From NCBI RefSeq assembly GCF_000378225.1, contig NZ_KB905141.1:883326-947325 (forward strand): a stretch of DNA of 64,000 nucleotides. The letters run 5' to 3'. Positions 5,324 to 39,263 of the stretch are shown here, in pieces. Numbering within the stretch: the stretch's first letter is position 1; every line of letters begins with the position of its first letter. The notes under the pieces are model-generated. The model had not been told where the DNA came from. It searched no databases and was given only the letters and a program-made list of their open reading frames with translations. Source of the DNA: Methylophilus methylotrophus DSM 46235 = ATCC 53528. GTDB lineage: Bacteria > Pseudomonadota > Gammaproteobacteria > Burkholderiales > Methylophilaceae. The translations under genes were made by a program, and so were the position numbers.

Positions 5324-6263
5324 AATGATCGTATCCTTTCTGCGACAGCACGATGGGGTTATTCGCATCAAAGACTTGCAGCCCTGGTTCAGCCTGAACT
5401 TTCCCGATGCGGCTTAAGGGCAAACCCAACTGCGCCGAGAGGGCGAGTACAGTCTGCCGCTCCGTCGCTGGCGCGGTAAAACACAGTTCATAATCATCAC
5501 CTCCCGTTAATACAGCCTGCTGCATGACCGGTTCACTGACTTGCGAATACTGCAAGACAGGCTGGGAAATCGCTTGCCAATCCAGCATCGCCCCGACCTT
5601 GGAGGCCTTCAAGATATGCCCTAAATCCGCCAGCAAGCCATCCGAAATATCTAGTGCTGCGGTGGCAACACCACGCAATGCCTGACCTAAGGCGACACGC
5701 GGTTGAGGATGATGCATAGCCGTGGCCAGCATGGCAACGTCTTCTGCATGCAGCACAAGCTGACCCAAGCGATACTGAAGCCACAAGGCGGCACACCCCA
5801 ACTCGCCACTGACCCAGATATCATCGCCAACTTGCGCACCATTGCGTTGCAACGCCTGCCCAAACGGTACTTCACCCATGATATTGATCGCGATAGTTAG
5901 TGGCCCCCGCGTGGTATCTCCGCCAATCAGCGACACACCAAACGCCTCTGCACACTTAAATAACCCATCGCTAAAGTCCCGCAACCATGATTCATCCAAC
6001 TCAGGCAAAGCTATCGACAAAGTGGCCCATTTTGGCTCAGCGCCCATGGCAGCCATATCGCTAATGTTTACGGCCATGCTTTTCCAGCCGATGGCAAACG
6101 GATTTATGTCAGAAAAAAAATGCGTGCCTGCCACTGACATATCCGCAGACACGGCCAGCTGATAGCCGTCACGCACCCGGATCAGGGCAGCATCATCCCC
6201 TATGCCTACATCCGCCTGGGCAGGTCGGGTAAAGTATTTAGCGATAATATCAAACTCAGCCAC
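5316..6263 (-). CDS. thiL: Thiamine-monophosphate kinase
   Basis: ThiL phosphorylates thiamine monophosphate to thiamine diphosphate with ATP, the last step of cofactor synthesis. The 315-residue product begins MAEFDIIAKYFTRP and has the GIGDDAALI metal/nucleotide motif near residue 20. SLIGGDTTRGPL in the middle and GGDDYELCF near residue 250 are also present, as expected of the PurM/ThiL fold. The start overlaps the stop of the upstream VanZ-like gene by eight bases. The thiL-pgpA pairing is common in proteobacteria and supports both calls. Confidence 0.97.
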   Translation of the reverse strand: MAEFDIIAKYFTRPAQADVGIGDDAALIRVRDGYQLAVSADMSVAGTHFFSDINPFAIGWKSMAVNISDMAAMGAEPKWATLSIALPELDESWLRDFSDGLFKCAEAFGVSLIGGDTTRGPLTIAINIMGEVPFGQALQRNGAQVGDDIWVSGELGCAALWLQYRLGQLVLHAEDVAMLATAMHHPQPRVALGQALRGVATAALDISDGLLADLGHILKASKVGAMLDWQAISQPVLQYSQVSEPVMQQAVLTGGDDYELCFTAPATERQTVLALSAQLGLPLSRIGKVQAEPGLQVFDANNPIVLSQKGYDHFG

Positions 6264-6612
6264 GTCGCTTGTTCCACCCGTGCTGCCACAGAACTACCAC
6301 AATCCAGGCCAATAAAATGCCAACAAGGTCAGCCAGCCAGTCGTATGTACTTGCCTGCCGAGTTGTGGTCAGCACTCCTTGCAATACCTCCATAAGGGCT
6401 CCAAACACCGCTAGCCCTAGCATGACCGCCTTAGGATAACGCTGAAATGCCAGCAGTCCCCAAAAAGCCACGCCGGCAAAAGCAGCAATGTGCTGCAGCT
6501 TATCCTTGTAAACTGAACCATTGTTACTGGGCGCCATTTCAATGAGTAAGAGATACGTCAAGAGAGCAAAGCAAACGAGAAAAACAAGCTTATGAGTGTT
6601 TTTGAAAAACAT
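6256..6612 (-). CDS. VanZ-like small membrane protein
   Basis: The 118-residue product has about four membrane-spanning segments. It carries features of the VanZ-like family: DKLQHIAAFAGVAFWGLLAF, then GALMEVLQGVLTTTRQASTYDWLADLVGILLAW. The conserved acidic residue and DWLAD-type motif near the C-terminus are typical. The biochemical role of chromosomal VanZ-like proteins is not established; resistance to teicoplanin is known only for the Enterococcus homologue. It lies 12 bases after mogA and overlaps thiL, so it is part of the same transcription unit. Confidence 0.8.
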   Translation of the reverse strand: MFFKNTHKLVFLVCFALLTYLLLIEMAPSNNGSVYKDKLQHIAAFAGVAFWGLLAFQRYPKAVMLGLAVFGALMEVLQGVLTTTRQASTYDWLADLVGILLAWIVVVLWQHGWNKRRG

Positions 6613-6624
6613 GCTATTCCTGAT

Positions 6625-7236
6625 TTAGCGTGTGGCAGCCTGACGTATGGCTGACTTGGGCCGAAATGATTTCACCAGAGCCTCATTCGTTTCCAGATAA
6701 GGCATCGCGCTATCGGGCGTGGCGAGCAGATCCAGGCAATATGGTACTGCTGCAAAGATTCCCGGCACCAGCGTATTACCGTCGTTATCTTTGAGACCTT
6801 CCAGCGTTTCCTGGATAGATTTAGGTTGGCCAGGCAAATTGATAATCAGGCACTGCTTGCGGATGACGGCCACCTGGCGCGATAAAATGGCGGTGGGCAC
6901 AAACCGCAGACTGATTTGCCGCATTTGCTCACCAAAACCGGGCATTTCGCGATCCGCCACAGCCAATGTCGCTTCTGGCGTGACATCCCTGACGGACGGC
7001 CCGGTGCCTCCTGTCGTTAATATTAAGTGGCAGCCTTCTTCGTCGACTAATTGCTTGAGCGTATTTGAGATAGTGGCCTGATCGTCTGCAATCAGCCGGG
7101 AAGATACCGTATATGGAGAAACCAGGGCCTGGGCCAACCACGCTGTGAGCGCAGGAATTCCCTTGTCCTCATAAACGCCTTGTGAAGCGCGGTCGCTGAT
7201 CGAAACTAATCCGATACGCGTAATGTCTTCTTGCAT
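6625..7236 (-). CDS. mogA: Molybdopterin adenylyltransferase
   Basis: MogA adenylates molybdopterin before molybdenum insertion in cofactor synthesis. The product from ATG 7236 is 203 residues and begins MQEDITRIGLVSISDRASQG. The MogA/MoaB motif TTGGTGPSVRDVTPEAT lies mid-protein, followed by GFGEQMRQISLRFVPTAILSRQ and LPGQPKSIQETLEGL. In-frame ATGs at 7275 and 7278 would add 13-14 residues; none of the candidates has a good ribosome site, so the start is uncertain. It heads a left-reading unit with vanZ-like, thiL, pgpA and pncC. It is divergent from the PDZ gene. No molybdoenzyme gene is in the window. Confidence 0.93.
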   Translation of the reverse strand: MQEDITRIGLVSISDRASQGVYEDKGIPALTAWLAQALVSPYTVSSRLIADDQATISNTLKQLVDEEGCHLILTTGGTGPSVRDVTPEATLAVADREMPGFGEQMRQISLRFVPTAILSRQVAVIRKQCLIINLPGQPKSIQETLEGLKDNDGNTLVPGIFAAVPYCLDLLATPDSAMPYLETNEALVKSFRPKSAIRQAATR

Positions 7237-34166: not shown

Positions 34167-34246
34167 GCGGAACCATAGATTTTATGGTTTCGCCATTAAA
34201 ACAAAGTTGTTATTTTTAAAAATGAAATCAGGTGTTTGGAGAGATT

Positions 34247-34732
34247 ATGAAATCAGTTAAGTTTTTAGTGGCCTTGTTCTCACTGTCATTTGCCTTGCAG
34301 GCATTTGCATTGTCCGATGAGGAATATATGGAGTTTACCGAGGCCCTTACCGGTGGCAACGTGAAAGTGGTTAAAAAATTTGTCGAGGCCGATCCGAGCC
34401 TGGTCAAACAGAAATTCTTTGCCTGGGAGCCGCTGCAAATGGCAGCCTCAAAAGGAAAGATTGACGTGGTTAAATACCTGGTTTCCAAAGGCGCTGACCT
34501 GAACTACGTACACCCAGCCAGTCACAATACCGCTTTCCATATGGCAGCCTTTATTGGTGACACTGACACTATGAAATACCTGGCTTCTGCAGGTGCAGAT
34601 GTGAACGTTAAACTGAAAGGCGATGTGTCATTGGTGCGTTTTTTCAAAGAAGAAGGAAATCAGAAGATGGTGGACTTGCTGACACAACTGGGCACCAAGA
34701 ATGATGGTTGCCAGGAAGAAAAATGCTTTTAA
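34247..34732 (+). CDS. Small secreted ankyrin-repeat protein
   Basis: The 161-residue product has a Sec signal (MKSVKFLVALFSLSFALQAFA) and about three to four ankyrin repeats. One covers NVKVVKKFVEADPSLV, the next EPLQMAASKGKIDVVKYLVSKGADL, and another TAFHMAAFIGDTDTMKYLASAGADV. It ends NDGCQEEKCF with two cysteines that could form a disulfide. Ankyrin repeats bind proteins; the partner is unknown. ATG 34247 is chosen for the GGAGAG site; a GTG at 34232 is less likely. It is monocistronic between purL and the flavocytochrome operon. A longer ankyrin protein is at 56409. Confidence 0.85.
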   Translation: MKSVKFLVALFSLSFALQAFALSDEEYMEFTEALTGGNVKVVKKFVEADPSLVKQKFFAWEPLQMAASKGKIDVVKYLVSKGADLNYVHPASHNTAFHMAAFIGDTDTMKYLASAGADVNVKLKGDVSLVRFFKEEGNQKMVDLLTQLGTKNDGCQEEKCF

Positions 34733-34760: not shown

Positions 34761-34790
34761 AAAACGGTCATGAGATTCATGGCCGTTTTT
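34761..34790 (+). terminator. Terminator after the small ankyrin gene
   Basis: AAAACGGTCATGA pairs with TCATGGCCGTTTT (one G-T pair) around a short GAT loop, followed by TTGTTTTAATTT. It lies 29 bases after the stop codon. Confidence 0.85.
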
Positions 34791-34886
34791 GTTTTAATTT
34801 ACCCTGATCAATGTAACCATAGTCACGCACGCCAGCATCATCTGTTTAGAATAATGTGACATCTCAAACAATCATCTGGGGGAAGC

Positions 34887-35243
34887 ATGCAACGTTTCAC
34901 TGTCACACTTGTATGGGTTTGTTTTACCTTGGCCACGTTCCCGGCACAGGCAGAAGAGCTTGCCTTGACCAGCACCCGCACCCTGGCAGCCTCTTGCGCT
35001 GCGTGCCATGGCCCCAATGGTAATAGCCTGGGCAGCACCCCAACACTGGCTGCACTCAATCAGCAATATTTTATCCAGCGCATGCAGGGCTTTAAAGATG
35101 GCTCAGTCAGCTCTACCGTGATGCATCATCATGCCAAAGGCCTGACCACAGAGGAAGTCACTGCAATGGCGGCCTATTTTGCGCAGCAACCCAGGCAGAC
35201 GCCGCAACCCCTGCCGCACCAATCATTTCTGGGAGCACAATAA
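34887..35243 (+). CDS. Monohaem cytochrome c, FccA-like subunit of flavocytochrome c
   Basis: The 118-residue product has a Sec signal ending AQAEE and one haem-binding CAACH at Cys37-Cys40-His41, in the ASCAACHGPNGNS context of cytochrome c553/c4-type domains. A distal Met ligand is plausible in STVMHHHAKGL. Its stop overlaps the start of the FccB-like gene (TAATG). In flavocytochrome c sulfide dehydrogenase the cytochrome subunit takes electrons from the flavoprotein, so this is inferred to be that subunit; the single haem matches Chlorobium-type rather than the dihaem Chromatium type. ATG 34887 follows GGGGGAAG. Confidence 0.88.
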   Translation: MQRFTVTLVWVCFTLATFPAQAEELALTSTRTLAASCAACHGPNGNSLGSTPTLAALNQQYFIQRMQGFKDGSVSSTVMHHHAKGLTTEEVTAMAAYFAQQPRQTPQPLPHQSFLGAQ

Positions 35244-36532
35244 TGGCGATGGAGAAAATTACCAGACTGCCTGTTCCCACGCGCAGGCAGTTCGTACGTT
35301 CAGTCATTTATGGCGGACTCGCTTTTTATGGTTTGCCAGCTTTTGCACGTGCCGGCAAACCGCCTTTGGGCCACGTGGTGGTGGTCGGTGCAGGCTTTGC
35401 CGGCCTCACCGCAGCTAAATACCTGCGCGAATGGAGTATGGGCAACCTCAAAGTCACCCTTATTGAACCGAATCCGCAATTTATCTCCTGCCCGCAAAGC
35501 AATCTGGTGCTGGGTGGCAGCCGCACCTTGGACCAGTTGAGCTTCAGCTATGACATCGCGCGCAAGCAGCATGATCTGCATTGGATACGGGATAGCGTGA
35601 TGTCCGTCGACATGGCGAACAAGCAGGTCAAACTCACGCGCGGCAGCCTCAGCTATGACCGGCTGGTGCTGGCGCCTGGTGTTGATTTCAATTACAGCAA
35701 GATTCCCGGGATGCCTTCCCCTGTAGAGAATATCCCGCATGCCTGGAAAGCAGGTAAGCAAACCTTGCAATTGCGGCAGCAACTGGAAAGCATGCCGGAT
35801 GGTGGCGTGTTTGTCATGACCATCCCCAGTGGCGCTTACCGCTGCCCGCCTGGCCCTTATGAACGTGCCTGCCAAGTGGCACATTACTTCAAACAGCACA
35901 AACCGCGCAGCAAAGTGATTATCCTGGATGCGAACGCCGATATTGTCTCGAAAAAAGGACTATTCCTGCAAAGCTTTAATGGGGCTTATCAGGGCATGAT
36001 TGAATACCATAACAACAGCGAGATTTTACAACTCGACACCGGCAGCAAAACCATCAAAACCGACTTTGAAACAGTCAAGGCCGATGTTCTCAATGTGATC
36101 CCACCACAGCTGGCGGGCAAAGTAGCGCAAGTGGCCGGACTGAATAATGTAGACCAGCGCTGGTGTGAAGTGGATTTTGTGAGCTATGCATCCACCCTGC
36201 AATCAGATGTGCATATTATCGGGGACAGCATTTCGGCAGGGTTACCGAAGTCTGCCCATATGGCAACCTCGCATGCGAAAGTATGCGCAGCAGCCATCAT
36301 TGAGCTCCAATCCGGTCACGCCCCTAACCCGTTGCCCGTGTTTGCCAATACTTGTTACAGCTTTGTCGATGACCAACAAGCCATGCATGTCGCTAATGTA
36401 TACCGCTATGATCCGGCCAAAAAATCCATGGTCTCGGCTGAAGGCGGCGGTGTGTCTGCTAAAGCCTCGCTGCAGGAAGGTGAATATGCACAGGCTTGGG
36501 CACATAATATCTGGGCGGACACATTGACATGA
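35243..36532 (+). CDS. fccB: Flavocytochrome c sulfide dehydrogenase flavoprotein subunit
   Basis: FccB-type enzymes oxidise sulfide in the periplasm and pass electrons to a cytochrome c. The 429-residue product has a twin-arginine signal (TRRQFV, residues 13-18) and an FAD-binding GAGFAGLTAAKYL. By comparison with Chromatium FccB, three key cysteines are present: Cys83 in ISCPQSN (covalent FAD site), Cys201 in RCPPGPYER, and Cys371 in NTCYS (the redox disulfide pair). AWKAGKQT and IPPQLAGKVAQVAGL are also conserved. It overlaps the cytochrome gene upstream and the next gene downstream (ATGA), so three genes are translationally coupled. ATG 35249 is an alternative start. Sulfide as substrate is inferred from residues, not tested. 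Confidence 0.9.
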   Translation: MAMEKITRLPVPTRRQFVRSVIYGGLAFYGLPAFARAGKPPLGHVVVVGAGFAGLTAAKYLREWSMGNLKVTLIEPNPQFISCPQSNLVLGGSRTLDQLSFSYDIARKQHDLHWIRDSVMSVDMANKQVKLTRGSLSYDRLVLAPGVDFNYSKIPGMPSPVENIPHAWKAGKQTLQLRQQLESMPDGGVFVMTIPSGAYRCPPGPYERACQVAHYFKQHKPRSKVIILDANADIVSKKGLFLQSFNGAYQGMIEYHNNSEILQLDTGSKTIKTDFETVKADVLNVIPPQLAGKVAQVAGLNNVDQRWCEVDFVSYASTLQSDVHIIGDSISAGLPKSAHMATSHAKVCAAAIIELQSGHAPNPLPVFANTCYSFVDDQQAMHVANVYRYDPAKKSMVSAEGGGVSAKASLQEGEYAQAWAHNIWADTLT

Positions 36533-37743
36533 CCGCGGCGCGCATCCATATCTCTGCCGTCAGCAAGGTTTCCCGGTTTTTATTCATCGGGCTGGCAGGC
36601 TTATCTATGGCGATTGGCTTGCATTATGCAATGGCGCAAACGCAGGAAGTCAATACAGCCCTGGCAAAGCTGGAAGTGCCTGCCGGACTCAGAATTGAGC
36701 GTTTCAGCGATGTCAGCCGCTGGGGCGCTCCTCGCATGCTGGCGCTTGATAGACAAGGCAGGCTACTCGTGAGCCTGTCGGATACCGGCCGCGTTTTGCG
36801 CCTTGACGAGGAAGGCAAGGCAGAGATCATTGCACAAGGCCTGAACGCGCCCCACGGAATGGCATTACTTGGAGATGACCTGCTGGTGGCCGAACAAACC
36901 GGTGTGGTTAAACTGGCCTGGCAGGGAGAGGGCTGGGCAGCGCCACAACCGTTTATCCGCAACCTGCCCAGTGGTGGGCATAGCCTGAAAACAGTCAAAG
37001 TCTCGCCGGATGGTTATATTTTCATCAATGTTGGTTCTAGCTGTAATGTCTGTGTAGAGGATAATCCTGTGCGCGGCACCTTATTGCGTTATAGTGCAGA
37101 CGGTCGCCCCGCAGGTGCTTTGCTGACTGTTGGCCGCCATGCACAAAGCGCTATTTGGGCCATCGGATTACGTAACAGTCAAGGCTTTACCTGGCATCCA
37201 GACACAGGGGAGATGTTTGCCACTAATAATGGCGCAGATAACCGTAGCGCTGTTAAAAATGGCAGCATTCATGATGACCTGCCGCCGGAACACCTAAATA
37301 AAATCGAGGCTGGAAAACACTATGGCTGGCCCTATTGCTGGGGGCACCCAGACCAGCCCGGACAACTTTTCCAGGACCCGAACTTTACCGGTGAACCGGA
37401 TATTTGCCAGCAAGCGCAGGCGCCTGCGCTGACTTTGCCTGCGCATAGTACGCCTATCGGCATCACCTTTCTGGCTTCAAGCCGCTTGCCATCAGACATG
37501 CAACAGGATGCCGTCATCGCCCTGCATGGCTCCTGGAACCGCAAACAACCCAGCGGTTACGCCTTGCTGCGTGTACAATTCAGGAACCAACAGCCTGTTG
37601 CAGCCGTCCCATTGATCAGTGGCTGGCTAGAAGGAAAACAAGCCTGGGGACGTCCAGTAGACGTGATTGTCGGTGCAGATGGCTGGCTTTACATTTCTGA
37701 CGACCTGACAGGCTGGATTTACCGGATACGTAGTACGCAATAA
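36529..37743 (+). CDS. Exported beta-propeller of the sugar/sorbosone dehydrogenase type
   Basis: The 404-residue product has an N-terminal signal or anchor (about residues 17-37) and a six-bladed propeller of the glucose/sorbosone dehydrogenase superfamily. Visible markers are PHGMALLGDDLLVAEQ, SGGHSLKTVKVSPDGYIFIN, GSSCNVCVEDNP, AIGLRNSQGFTWHPDTGEMF and NKIEAGKHYGWPYCWG. Soluble relatives can use PQQ; the active-site His of the GGH context is present, but PQQ binding cannot be shown here. It starts within the stop of fccB (ATGA), implying a joint role with the flavocytochrome, which is unusual for this family. Confidence 0.8.
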   Translation: MTAARIHISAVSKVSRFLFIGLAGLSMAIGLHYAMAQTQEVNTALAKLEVPAGLRIERFSDVSRWGAPRMLALDRQGRLLVSLSDTGRVLRLDEEGKAEIIAQGLNAPHGMALLGDDLLVAEQTGVVKLAWQGEGWAAPQPFIRNLPSGGHSLKTVKVSPDGYIFINVGSSCNVCVEDNPVRGTLLRYSADGRPAGALLTVGRHAQSAIWAIGLRNSQGFTWHPDTGEMFATNNGADNRSAVKNGSIHDDLPPEHLNKIEAGKHYGWPYCWGHPDQPGQLFQDPNFTGEPDICQQAQAPALTLPAHSTPIGITFLASSRLPSDMQQDAVIALHGSWNRKQPSGYALLRVQFRNQQPVAAVPLISGWLEGKQAWGRPVDVIVGADGWLYISDDLTGWIYRIRSTQ

Positions 37744-37785
37744 AAACCTTAAATGACTGAGATTTTTTTCAGGAGCAAGCAAATA

Positions 37786-38370
37786 ATGAAACGTATTTTA
37801 TTATCTATCAGCAGCGTGCTTTGCCTGGGCTGGATGAGCATGAGCCAGGCAGGTGCGCAACCTTCACTGGTGATACAGGTGCCAGAAGCTTTTTACCAGC
37901 ATCCGGTAAGATTCCTGCATCCTTATATCAACTATTGGCACAACCGTGCAGAAGCGGCTGAAACAACAGGTATCAGTAGCTTCCAGTCAAAAAACTACGC
38001 GACCTCCAGCTGTGAAGCCGAGGCGAAAGGCCAGGCATTGGTGGTGATTGAACCGAATATATTTTATAACCCGCAAACGGGCATTTATTACAGCGAAATT
38101 ACTGCCAAAGTATACAATCAGCCTGCGGCTGATAGCGCTTTAAGTAAACCCCTGATGACGGTCAAAGGCCATGGGCAATCACGTGGCTGGCTTTCCTTCA
38201 ATGTAGAACATTCAACACATCAATCGTACCAGCAGGCGTTTGATCAGGTCATCGAGCAATTGCAGAAGAACCCGGTTTTCCAGCAGTCTGTCGAACAGGG
38301 GCCTCTACAAACCTACCAGGCTTTATGCAATAGCATCGACACCCTCTCCCAACCCAAAGCCTTTTTCTAG
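37786..38370 (+). CDS. Secreted protein of unknown function in the flavocytochrome operon
   Basis: No family is recognised. The 194-residue product has a Sec signal (MKRILLSISSVLCLGWMSMSQAGA). A mature domain follows with YQHPVRFLHPYINYWHNRAE near its start, one cysteine at SSCEAEAKG, and a C-terminal cysteine (ALCNSID). The pair may form a disulfide. No haem, flavin or metal motif is evident. ATG 37786 is taken because AGGAG lies ten bases upstream; an in-frame ATG at 37753 lacks one. It lies 42 bases after the propeller gene and eight bases before the next, so it is probably cotranscribed. Confidence 0.72.
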   Translation: MKRILLSISSVLCLGWMSMSQAGAQPSLVIQVPEAFYQHPVRFLHPYINYWHNRAEAAETTGISSFQSKNYATSSCEAEAKGQALVVIEPNIFYNPQTGIYYSEITAKVYNQPAADSALSKPLMTVKGHGQSRGWLSFNVEHSTHQSYQQAFDQVIEQLQKNPVFQQSVEQGPLQTYQALCNSIDTLSQPKAFF

Positions 38371-38378
38371 GAGTGTGT

Positions 38379-39263
38379 ATGCTGTTTAAATGCCATCCGC
38401 ACCATCGTTTCTTTTCCAGCGTTCTGGCGACCTTGTCACTCACTTTTGCTGGCTACAGCCATGCACATGGACTGGACGCAGTCAGCGGCTTATTGACGCC
38501 AGAGTCTGTGGTACAAGCTGCTGATGGCAAAATCTATGTCTCCGAAATCAATGGTTTTGGCCAGGATGGAGACGGCCAGATTCGAGTGATAGACCAAGGA
38601 AAAACGGCGGTACTGGTCAAGGGCCTCGATGACCCCAAAGGCTTGGTGATCATCGGCAGTGATTTGTATATTGCCGATAAATCACGCGTATTGCGCATCG
38701 CCTTGAATCAGCCAGCTGCTAGTGCCGAAGTGTTTCTGGCAGCCACTGACTTTCCCAAAATCCCGCAATTTTTAAATGATTTGAGCGCAGATGCCAATGG
38801 CAATCTTTATATCAGTGACAGTGGCGATATTTTGGGCACAGGCAAAGGCGGTGCAATTTACAAAGTGACGCCTCAACGTGCATTAAGCCTGTTACTGGAT
38901 GGCAATATTGACGCGCGCATCCTGGCCCCCAATGGCCTGCTGGCGGATGCGAAGGGTGAGCAGCTGTTATTGGTCGACTTCACCTCGGGCGTGCTTTACA
39001 ACTACAACCAGTTGACCGAACAGCTGGACGAAATAGCGAGTGGGTTTGGTGGTGCAGACGGCATTGTCAAACAGGCCAATGGCAATATCTATATCAGTGA
39101 CTGGAAGAATGGCAAAGTATTCCGTGTCGATACGCAGCACAAAGTCACCTTGATAAAAGAGGGCTATCAGTCTGCAGCCGATATTGCCCTGACACAAGAT
39201 GACCATCATTTGCTGGTACCAGATATGAAAGCGGGCAAGCTCGATATTATCGACTTGCGTTAA
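38379..39263 (+). CDS. Exported NHL/SMP-30-like beta-propeller protein
   Basis: The 294-residue product has a Sec signal ending AGYSHAHG. It carries repeated propeller blades of about 45 residues: TPESVVQAADGKIYVSEING, DDPKGLVIIGSDLYIADKSR, NDLSADANGNLYISDSGD, APNGLLADAKGEQLLLVDF, GGADGIVKQANGNIYISDWK. The repeated LYISD/IYISD strand with a Gly-Asn turn is typical of NHL/SMP-30/gluconolactonase-like folds. Enzyme activity cannot be read from sequence. ATG 38379 has AGGAG five bases upstream. It closes the five-gene redox operon; two propellers in one operon suggest a shared periplasmic complex or substrate. Confidence 0.78.
   Translation: MLFKCHPHHRFFSSVLATLSLTFAGYSHAHGLDAVSGLLTPESVVQAADGKIYVSEINGFGQDGDGQIRVIDQGKTAVLVKGLDDPKGLVIIGSDLYIADKSRVLRIALNQPAASAEVFLAATDFPKIPQFLNDLSADANGNLYISDSGDILGTGKGGAIYKVTPQRALSLLLDGNIDARILAPNGLLADAKGEQLLLVDFTSGVLYNYNQLTEQLDEIASGFGGADGIVKQANGNIYISDWKNGKVFRVDTQHKVTLIKEGYQSAADIALTQDDHHLLVPDMKAGKLDIIDLR

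Follow-up and report, generated by a model that had tools for sequence, protein, structure and literature searches.

A conserved Methylophilaceae gene run of predicted periplasmic proteins headed by a flavocytochrome c sulfide dehydrogenase

The closest described relative of the locus considered here is flavocytochrome c sulfide dehydrogenase (FccAB), represented by the solved structures 1fcd, 3vrd and 5n1t; its surroundings in the locus recall pyrroloquinoline quinone (PQQ)-dependent sugar dehydrogenases and Ca2+-dependent lactonases. Earlier publications report fccA, sqr and soxY in Methylophilus genomes (PMC8399692), soxYZ in strain LSUCC0135 (PMC5095479) and a 1.67-fold rise of Methylophaga FccB on dimethylsulfide (DMS) (PMC6548844), while the accessible part of a genome-reduction study of the family (PMC6794327) does not contain the word flavocytochrome. 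The locus is a run of five open reading frames (ORFs), all on the + strand and in a single direction, in a 64-kb stretch of Methylophilus methylotrophus DSM 46235 DNA, which is termed the window. No description of this five-gene run was found in the literature searched, as far as its accessible text extends.

We favour, with a probability of roughly 0.55, the reading that the run is an operon inherited vertically within the Methylophilaceae, that it encodes periplasmic enzymes which donate electrons, with a genuine flavocytochrome c sulfide dehydrogenase at its head, and that a CRP-type regulator controls it together with soxYZ. Directly observed are the gene order, the conserved cofactor and redox residues, the conservation of an upstream box and the independent loss of modules. 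The run and its box comprise the following features:

34887..35243, + strand: cytc, FccA-like monohaem cytochrome c; nearest solved chain 1fcd_C, CxxCH and Met79 conserved
35243..36532, + strand: fccB, flavin subunit of flavocytochrome c sulfide dehydrogenase with a Tat-like signal; FCSD_central and FCSD-flav_bind domains, 3vrd_B match, three conserved cysteines
36529..37743, + strand: GSDH-type propeller, probable PQQ-dependent dehydrogenase; PF07995, profile matches to 6jt5 and 6i1q
37786..38370 (ORF opens at 37753), + strand: ORF4, orphan predicted periplasmic protein with an LptE/PelC/PqiC/CsgG-like predicted fold (model and Foldseek)
38379..39263 (ORF opens with GTG at 38373), + strand: last propeller, six-bladed, Ca2+ lactonase/DFPase-like (SGL, model and Foldseek)
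34812..34827 (core 34813-34826), + strand: CRP-type box TGTAACCATAGTCACG before the cytochrome gene; palindrome pattern conserved among loci

Flavocytochrome c genes at the head of the run

FccB scores 148.9 bits for FCSD_central (cut-off 27) and 85.7 bits for FCSD-flav_bind (cut-off 26), and matches the solved chains 3vrd_B, 1fcd_A and 5n1t_A with E values of 3.6e-94, 4.2e-91 and 3.8e-89, respectively. Judged by its sequence, it is a clear member of the flavocytochrome c sulfide dehydrogenase family. The first-pass annotation of this DNA had pointed out Cys83, Cys201 and Cys371; these residues fall on cysteines of 3vrd_B and 1fcd_A in the alignment, and occur in every family sequence that covers them (104/104, 104/104 and 105/105, respectively, from 106 sequences in all). 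We take Cys83 to be the FAD-linking residue and Cys201/Cys371 to be the redox pair. The cytochrome finds its nearest solved chain in 1fcd_C, the cytochrome subunit of flavocytochrome c (E 1.2e-16), with its haem motif C-x-x-C-H and Met79 invariant in 103/103 sequences. An FccA-type cytochrome gene accompanies fccB in 98/98 loci.

Taken alone, FccAB is thus quite probably a working sulfide dehydrogenase. The Cys201/Cys371 pair of FccB, next to the covalently attached FAD, would be the site of sulfide oxidation, and the electrons would pass through the FccA haem to the cytochrome c pool; the sulfur may be released as polysulfide or taken up by the SoxYZ carrier.

The ORF coordinates bear out the earlier statement that the five genes read rightwards with the first three overlapping, as cytc and fccB share 1 base (TAATG) and fccB and the GSDH gene share 4 bases (ATGA). 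Ribosome sites and signal-like N-termini, both called by eye, place the start of ORF4 probably better at the ATG at 37786 (194 aa) and that of the last propeller probably better at the ATG at 38379 (294 aa). Export signals had been proposed for all five proteins, and signal-like N-termini are indeed seen by eye in each, Tat-like in FccB (TRRQFV) and Sec-like in the other four.

Two features lie immediately upstream of the run and its box:

34232..34732, + strand: ankyrin-repeat protein (Pfam Ank) with a signal-like N-terminus; constant upstream neighbour (106/106 purL-anchored loci)
34761..34789, + strand: terminator-like hairpin of 13 pairs followed by a T run, between the ankyrin gene and the run

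Hairpins like that at 34761-34789 occur in 27/94 ankyrin-cytc gaps, and the ankyrin gene of this window probably forms its own transcript. Hairpin-plus-T sites inside the run are scarce (cytc-fccB 1/89, fccB-GSDH 0/76, GSDH-ORF4 4/79, ORF4-propeller 0/90), so that terminators splitting the run, which would have contradicted a single operon, are rare at all four junctions. The terminator scan found no + strand terminator directly behind the run and a minus-strand one at 39309-39290. The ankyrin gene, which stands between purL and the run, is never lost among the purL-anchored loci, though every module behind it goes missing somewhere.

Putative control region and the soxYZ connection

The box was found by aligning the ankyrin-cytc gap in 20 loci of the window's genus, which form the discovery set, and was counted in the 200 bases before named run genes. 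GTNAC-N4-GTNAC precedes cytc in 29/104 loci (0.13 in dinucleotide shuffles) and GTRA-N6-TYAC in 38/104 (1.2 in mononucleotide shuffles), the latter being present in 19/20 discovery loci and 19/84 other loci. Before the other genes GTRA-N6-TYAC is found in 0/83 (GSDH), 0/110 (ORF4), 1/101 (last propeller), 0/106 (ankyrin) and 2/104 (fccB) cases. Among the 30 best soxYZ matches, drawn from 164 genomes that have one, the perfect palindrome TGTGA-N6-TCACA lies before the soxYZ fusion gene in 23/30 loci (0.005 in shuffles). A conserved palindrome therefore stands ahead of both the cytc and the soxYZ units, an arrangement that a shared CRP-type regulon would need.

The genome of the window holds two soxY-soxZ fusion genes (L296:5264-6064 and L297:4955-5791), one of them with a perfect TGTGA-N6-TCACA about 65 bases upstream. 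In each of the 5 fccAB copies tested at sites other than purL, a soxYZ match on the same strand precedes the pair at a distance of 19-959 bases; the comparison left aside a further, sixth fccB-like gene at such a site (G048, L253, 32% identity). Two full-length CRP/FNR-type regulators were detected in the same genome by PF13545. One has an FNR-like cysteine cluster; the other, the sole CRP-type (non-FNR) regulator found with PF13545, shows by eye a CRP-like recognition helix according to the consensus that we assume for CRP. Its gene is divergent from a run of bigR-like, TIGR01244 and SQR genes (L295:4301-7247), in which the TIGR01244 gene scores 90.5 bits (cut-off 85.85) and SQR matches mitochondrial SQR at E 1.2e-109. 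This candidate regulator, which probably belongs to the sulfide response, would control both the operon and the soxYZ fusion gene.

Several points weigh against the reading of a CRP-controlled sulfide operon. The box is absent from 66/104 loci under the pattern used, and the site in the window departs from TGTGA-N6-TCACA at 2 positions, which is the chance level for 64 kb. The CRP-type box is a widespread signal, counted here before selected genes only; the CRP gene and its bigR-like neighbour have no such box between them, and the bigR-like match stays under its cut-off (98.7 of 155 bits). soxYZ occurs in none of the fetched purL loci, and the accessible text of the literature searched gives no sulfide, DMS or expression datum on the operon.

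The box common to cytc and soxYZ, together with the soxYZ-fccAB clusters, favours sulfide oxidation over re-use of the flavocytochrome as an acceptor for a sugar dehydrogenase. Of the two roles that had been suggested for the locus, the sulfide one is strengthened by these two observations, and that of an acceptor for a propeller dehydrogenase finds no support. It is decidedly unlikely that FccAB, SoxYZ, both propellers and ORF4 form one periplasmic sulfur module under a sulfide-responsive CRP-family regulator, in which the substrate of the propellers would be an organosulfur compound, or else an adduct of sulfur with a sugar or aldehyde, instead of a plain sugar.

The genes behind fccB and their independent loss

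The GSDH-type protein had been called a sorbosone-dehydrogenase-type propeller, with which its PF07995 domain (68.7 bits, above cut-off) and its profile matches to the PQQ sugar dehydrogenases 6jt5 and 6i1q and to soluble quinoprotein glucose dehydrogenases, over nearly the full length, agree. Residues found in 80/80 sequences are His151 and Arg215-Asn216, presumably of the cofactor region, and four cysteines. A paralog in the same genome also has the C-x-x-C stretch, so the motif also occurs outside the operon. The protein is a probable PQQ-dependent dehydrogenase, which would separately feed the same cytochrome c pool with electrons from an aldose or aldehyde.

The second propeller had been labelled NHL-like; it is a propeller, as is the GSDH, and an SMP-30/DFPase/lactonase-like description fits it better. 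It scores 46.8 bits for the Pfam family SGL, and its model is six-bladed with a mean predicted local distance difference test (pLDDT) value of 91. The top Foldseek ranks are Pizza designs, Cj1041C with and without Ca2+, lactonase RPA3624, PknD and DFPase. Glu42, Asn133, Asn185 and Asp227 are invariant in 25/25 sequences, and their Glu-Asn-Asn-Asp order is, as we assume, that of the DFPase metal ligands. The modelled protein looks like a Ca2+ lactonase-type enzyme and may act as a Ca2+-dependent hydrolase of that type. Most likely, GSDH and this lactonase-like propeller are separate periplasmic enzymes.

ORF4 has no Pfam or NCBIfam family above cut-off, its profile finds no match among PDB sequences at E 1, and no lipobox is seen by eye. 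Its model (pLDDT 84) has as nearest Foldseek structures 3bf2 and chains of DUF330, PelC, CsgG, PqiC and LptE (best E 9e-05), with modest TM-scores of at most 0.45 (query) and 0.55 (target) among the 50 matches listed. Identity falls to 20% among relatives, and two cysteines are conserved in 110/110 and 109/110 rows. The family searched was Methylophilaceae, with 187 genomes; ORF4 occurs in 139 of them and in 24/24 genera. A search of 399 genomes of the order with its profile gave matches in 20: 13 are Methylophilaceae, and the 7 from other families match weakly (best E 4.7e-16 to 1.5e-8). ORF4 is an undescribed protein almost confined to the family, its predicted fold may be LptE/PelC/PqiC-like, and it most likely serves as an accessory periplasmic protein.

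Nine loci, mostly from small genomes of genus g15, have ORF4 but none of the other run genes. In L080 (5073-6200), from a small g15 genome and the one ORF4-only locus whose neighbours were Pfam-scanned, the solitary ORF4 is adjoined by a glutathione-peroxidase gene on the opposite strand. In another family of the order, a single open frame of 657 residues (L245:5713-7683, G276:C5) contains three ORF4-like stretches and has no Pfam match. In two Methylobacillus loci (L077:7742-9073 and L109:8736-10031) a CynX/NimT-like major facilitator superfamily transporter gene, at 238 bits under the 406-bit cut-off, stands between ORF4 and the last propeller.

The distribution of the run was followed in loci fetched around some matches of its genes, a set thus selected for at least one run gene, with gene counts taken from hidden Markov model (HMM) labels on all six frames. 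There were 121 labelled loci, to which 11 more were added; 112 hold purL, and 106 of these reach 6 kb behind purL (6 shorter ones were dropped, and genome G055 is counted twice). Among these 106 loci the ankyrin gene is present in 106, cytc in 98, fccB in 98, GSDH in 82, ORF4 in 97 and the last propeller in 102, and all five run genes follow the ankyrin gene in one order in 69. In the whole family, FccB-like matches occur in 133/187 genomes, weak SQR-like ones included, and GSDH in 124/187 at E 1e-20, paralogs included. G055:C1 holds the purL-ankyrin-GSDH-ORF4-propeller region twice (L079, 927000-939000; L251, 1069000-1081000) with equal match scores.

Conservation beside fccAB, the absence of which would have spoken against the proposed association, was found: fccB is accompanied by at least one extra gene in 20 of the 23 genera with a purL locus, and by the complete set in 15. 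The first-pass annotation had also held the propellers and the orphan protein to be foreign to known FccAB surroundings, and none of the three lies within about 1.5 kb of fccB in the 24 nearest loci outside the family, 18 of which have an adjoining cytochrome gene; matches to fccB outside the family came from 177 genomes, and the 24 are the nearest of those with a locus. It is unlikely that common descent alone keeps the genes side by side, with neither function nor control in common. purL and the ankyrin gene are just as syntenic (106/106), and GSDH, ORF4 and the last propeller are each singly missing in some loci, but the order of all five is held across those 15 genera despite the divergence of ORF4, the genes overlap or are closely spaced (medians of 13, 53, 41 and 54 bases between HMM envelopes at the four junctions), and synteny fades behind the run, since the response-regulator gene that follows it in the window was labelled in only 4/40 loci.

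The modules behind the ankyrin gene are lost independently of each other, with the exception of cytc and fccB, which are always together (98/98 loci). fccB and GSDH are both present in 75 of the 106 loci, fccB only in 23, GSDH only in 7 and neither in 1; the run of strain LSUCC0135 (L117), for instance, consists of fccAB, ORF4 and the propeller without GSDH. ORF4 and the last propeller are both present in 94, ORF4 only in 3, the propeller only in 8 and neither in 1. On a FastTree tree of the last 450 PurL residues, the minimum number of state changes is 9 for GSDH, 5 for fccB, 7 for ORF4 and 4 for the last propeller. Six genomes account for the 7 loci with GSDH only: in G053 and G055 fccAB is found elsewhere, next to soxYZ, whereas G007, G009, G038 and G163 retain GSDH and lack an fccB ortholog altogether (G038 has only a match at 8.3e-9), as does G039 in a shorter locus. 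In L084 a nitroreductase-family gene on the opposite strand (6141-6794) occupies GSDH's place between fccB and ORF4.

These counts bear on the proposal that the flavocytochrome is re-used, its cytochrome or the whole FccAB accepting the electrons of GSDH in one complex or pathway. The overlapping genes, the joint presence of fccB and GSDH and the PQQ synthesis gene pqqC in the window's genome are in its favour; against it stand the fccAB-only and GSDH-only loci, the four genomes without any fccB ortholog, the invariance of the sulfide-active cysteines and the adjacency of fccAB to soxYZ elsewhere. GSDH also changes state at least 9 times with fccB mostly unchanged alongside: among the 5 independent, supported pairs with a GSDH difference, fccB is the same in 4.2 on average, a number of pairs too small for a test. 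Such re-use is very unlikely. Joint gain and loss of all five genes, expected of a single obligate complex, is not seen, so the idea of one periplasmic complex or pathway finds no support in its obligate form; the modular presence pattern fits independent enzymes under common control.

It is likewise improbable that periplasmic sugar oxidation is the main work of the run, with GSDH making a lactone, the last propeller hydrolysing it and fccAB as a passenger. The likeness of GSDH to PQQ sugar dehydrogenases and of the last propeller to lactonases, with conserved residues of a presumed metal site, would suit this, as would the presence of both in 79 of the 106 loci. The last propeller is kept in 23 loci without GSDH, GSDH in 3 without the propeller, and 1 locus has neither; for the former, a lactone could come at most from other GSDH-like genes elsewhere in the genome. 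Moreover, it is the cytc-fccB pair that heads the run behind the conserved box.

Implications and comparison with known systems

For the operon of separate electron-donor enzymes that we favour, we infer from the observations above every enzymatic step, the identity of the regulator, transcription as one unit and what ORF4 and the two propellers do. This reading suggests that the means to oxidise sulfide are widespread in a family noted for its use of methanol and methylamine, and the fcc operon, the soxYZ fusion gene and the CRP-type regulator adjoining SQR would make up a candidate regulon. Three unstudied exported-looking proteins gain a context, one of them nearly family-specific and solitary in several streamlined genomes. 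The operon also bears on the fate of sulfur freed from dimethylsulfide and other C1 sulfur compounds; no methanethiol oxidase (SBP56, PF05694) was found in the window's genome.

Among known systems, the LptE/PelC/PqiC/CsgG/DUF330 fold group takes the top Foldseek ranks for the ORF4 model, but ORF4 departs from it in its modest TM-scores, the missing PDB profile match and the missing lipobox. The last propeller resembles Cj1041C, RPA3624, DFPase and the SMP-30 family in fold and in the order of Glu, Asn, Asn and Asp, which is a sequence order and not a 3D superposition, but is only 16-26% identical to them in the Foldseek list. GSDH is like the PQQ-dependent sugar dehydrogenases (6jt5, 6i1q; PF07995) across almost the whole chain, but has four extra invariant cysteines, partly common to its same-genome paralog.

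FccAB agrees with its counterparts in 1fcd, 3vrd and 5n1t in adjacent cytochrome and flavin subunits, family domains and aligned FAD and redox cysteines. It differs in its monohaem cytochrome of 118 aa, as against 174-aa chains in 1fcd and 3vrd (5n1t_B is likewise short, at 102 aa), and in the three genes behind fccB, which the nearest fccB genes outside the family lack. The soxYZ-fccAB clusters of the Methylobacillus group and one other family genome (L078, L095, L097, L098 and L211) carry the same cytc-fccB pair but lie behind a soxYZ fusion gene, and the stretch fetched around them shows none of the three genes GSDH, ORF4 and last propeller.

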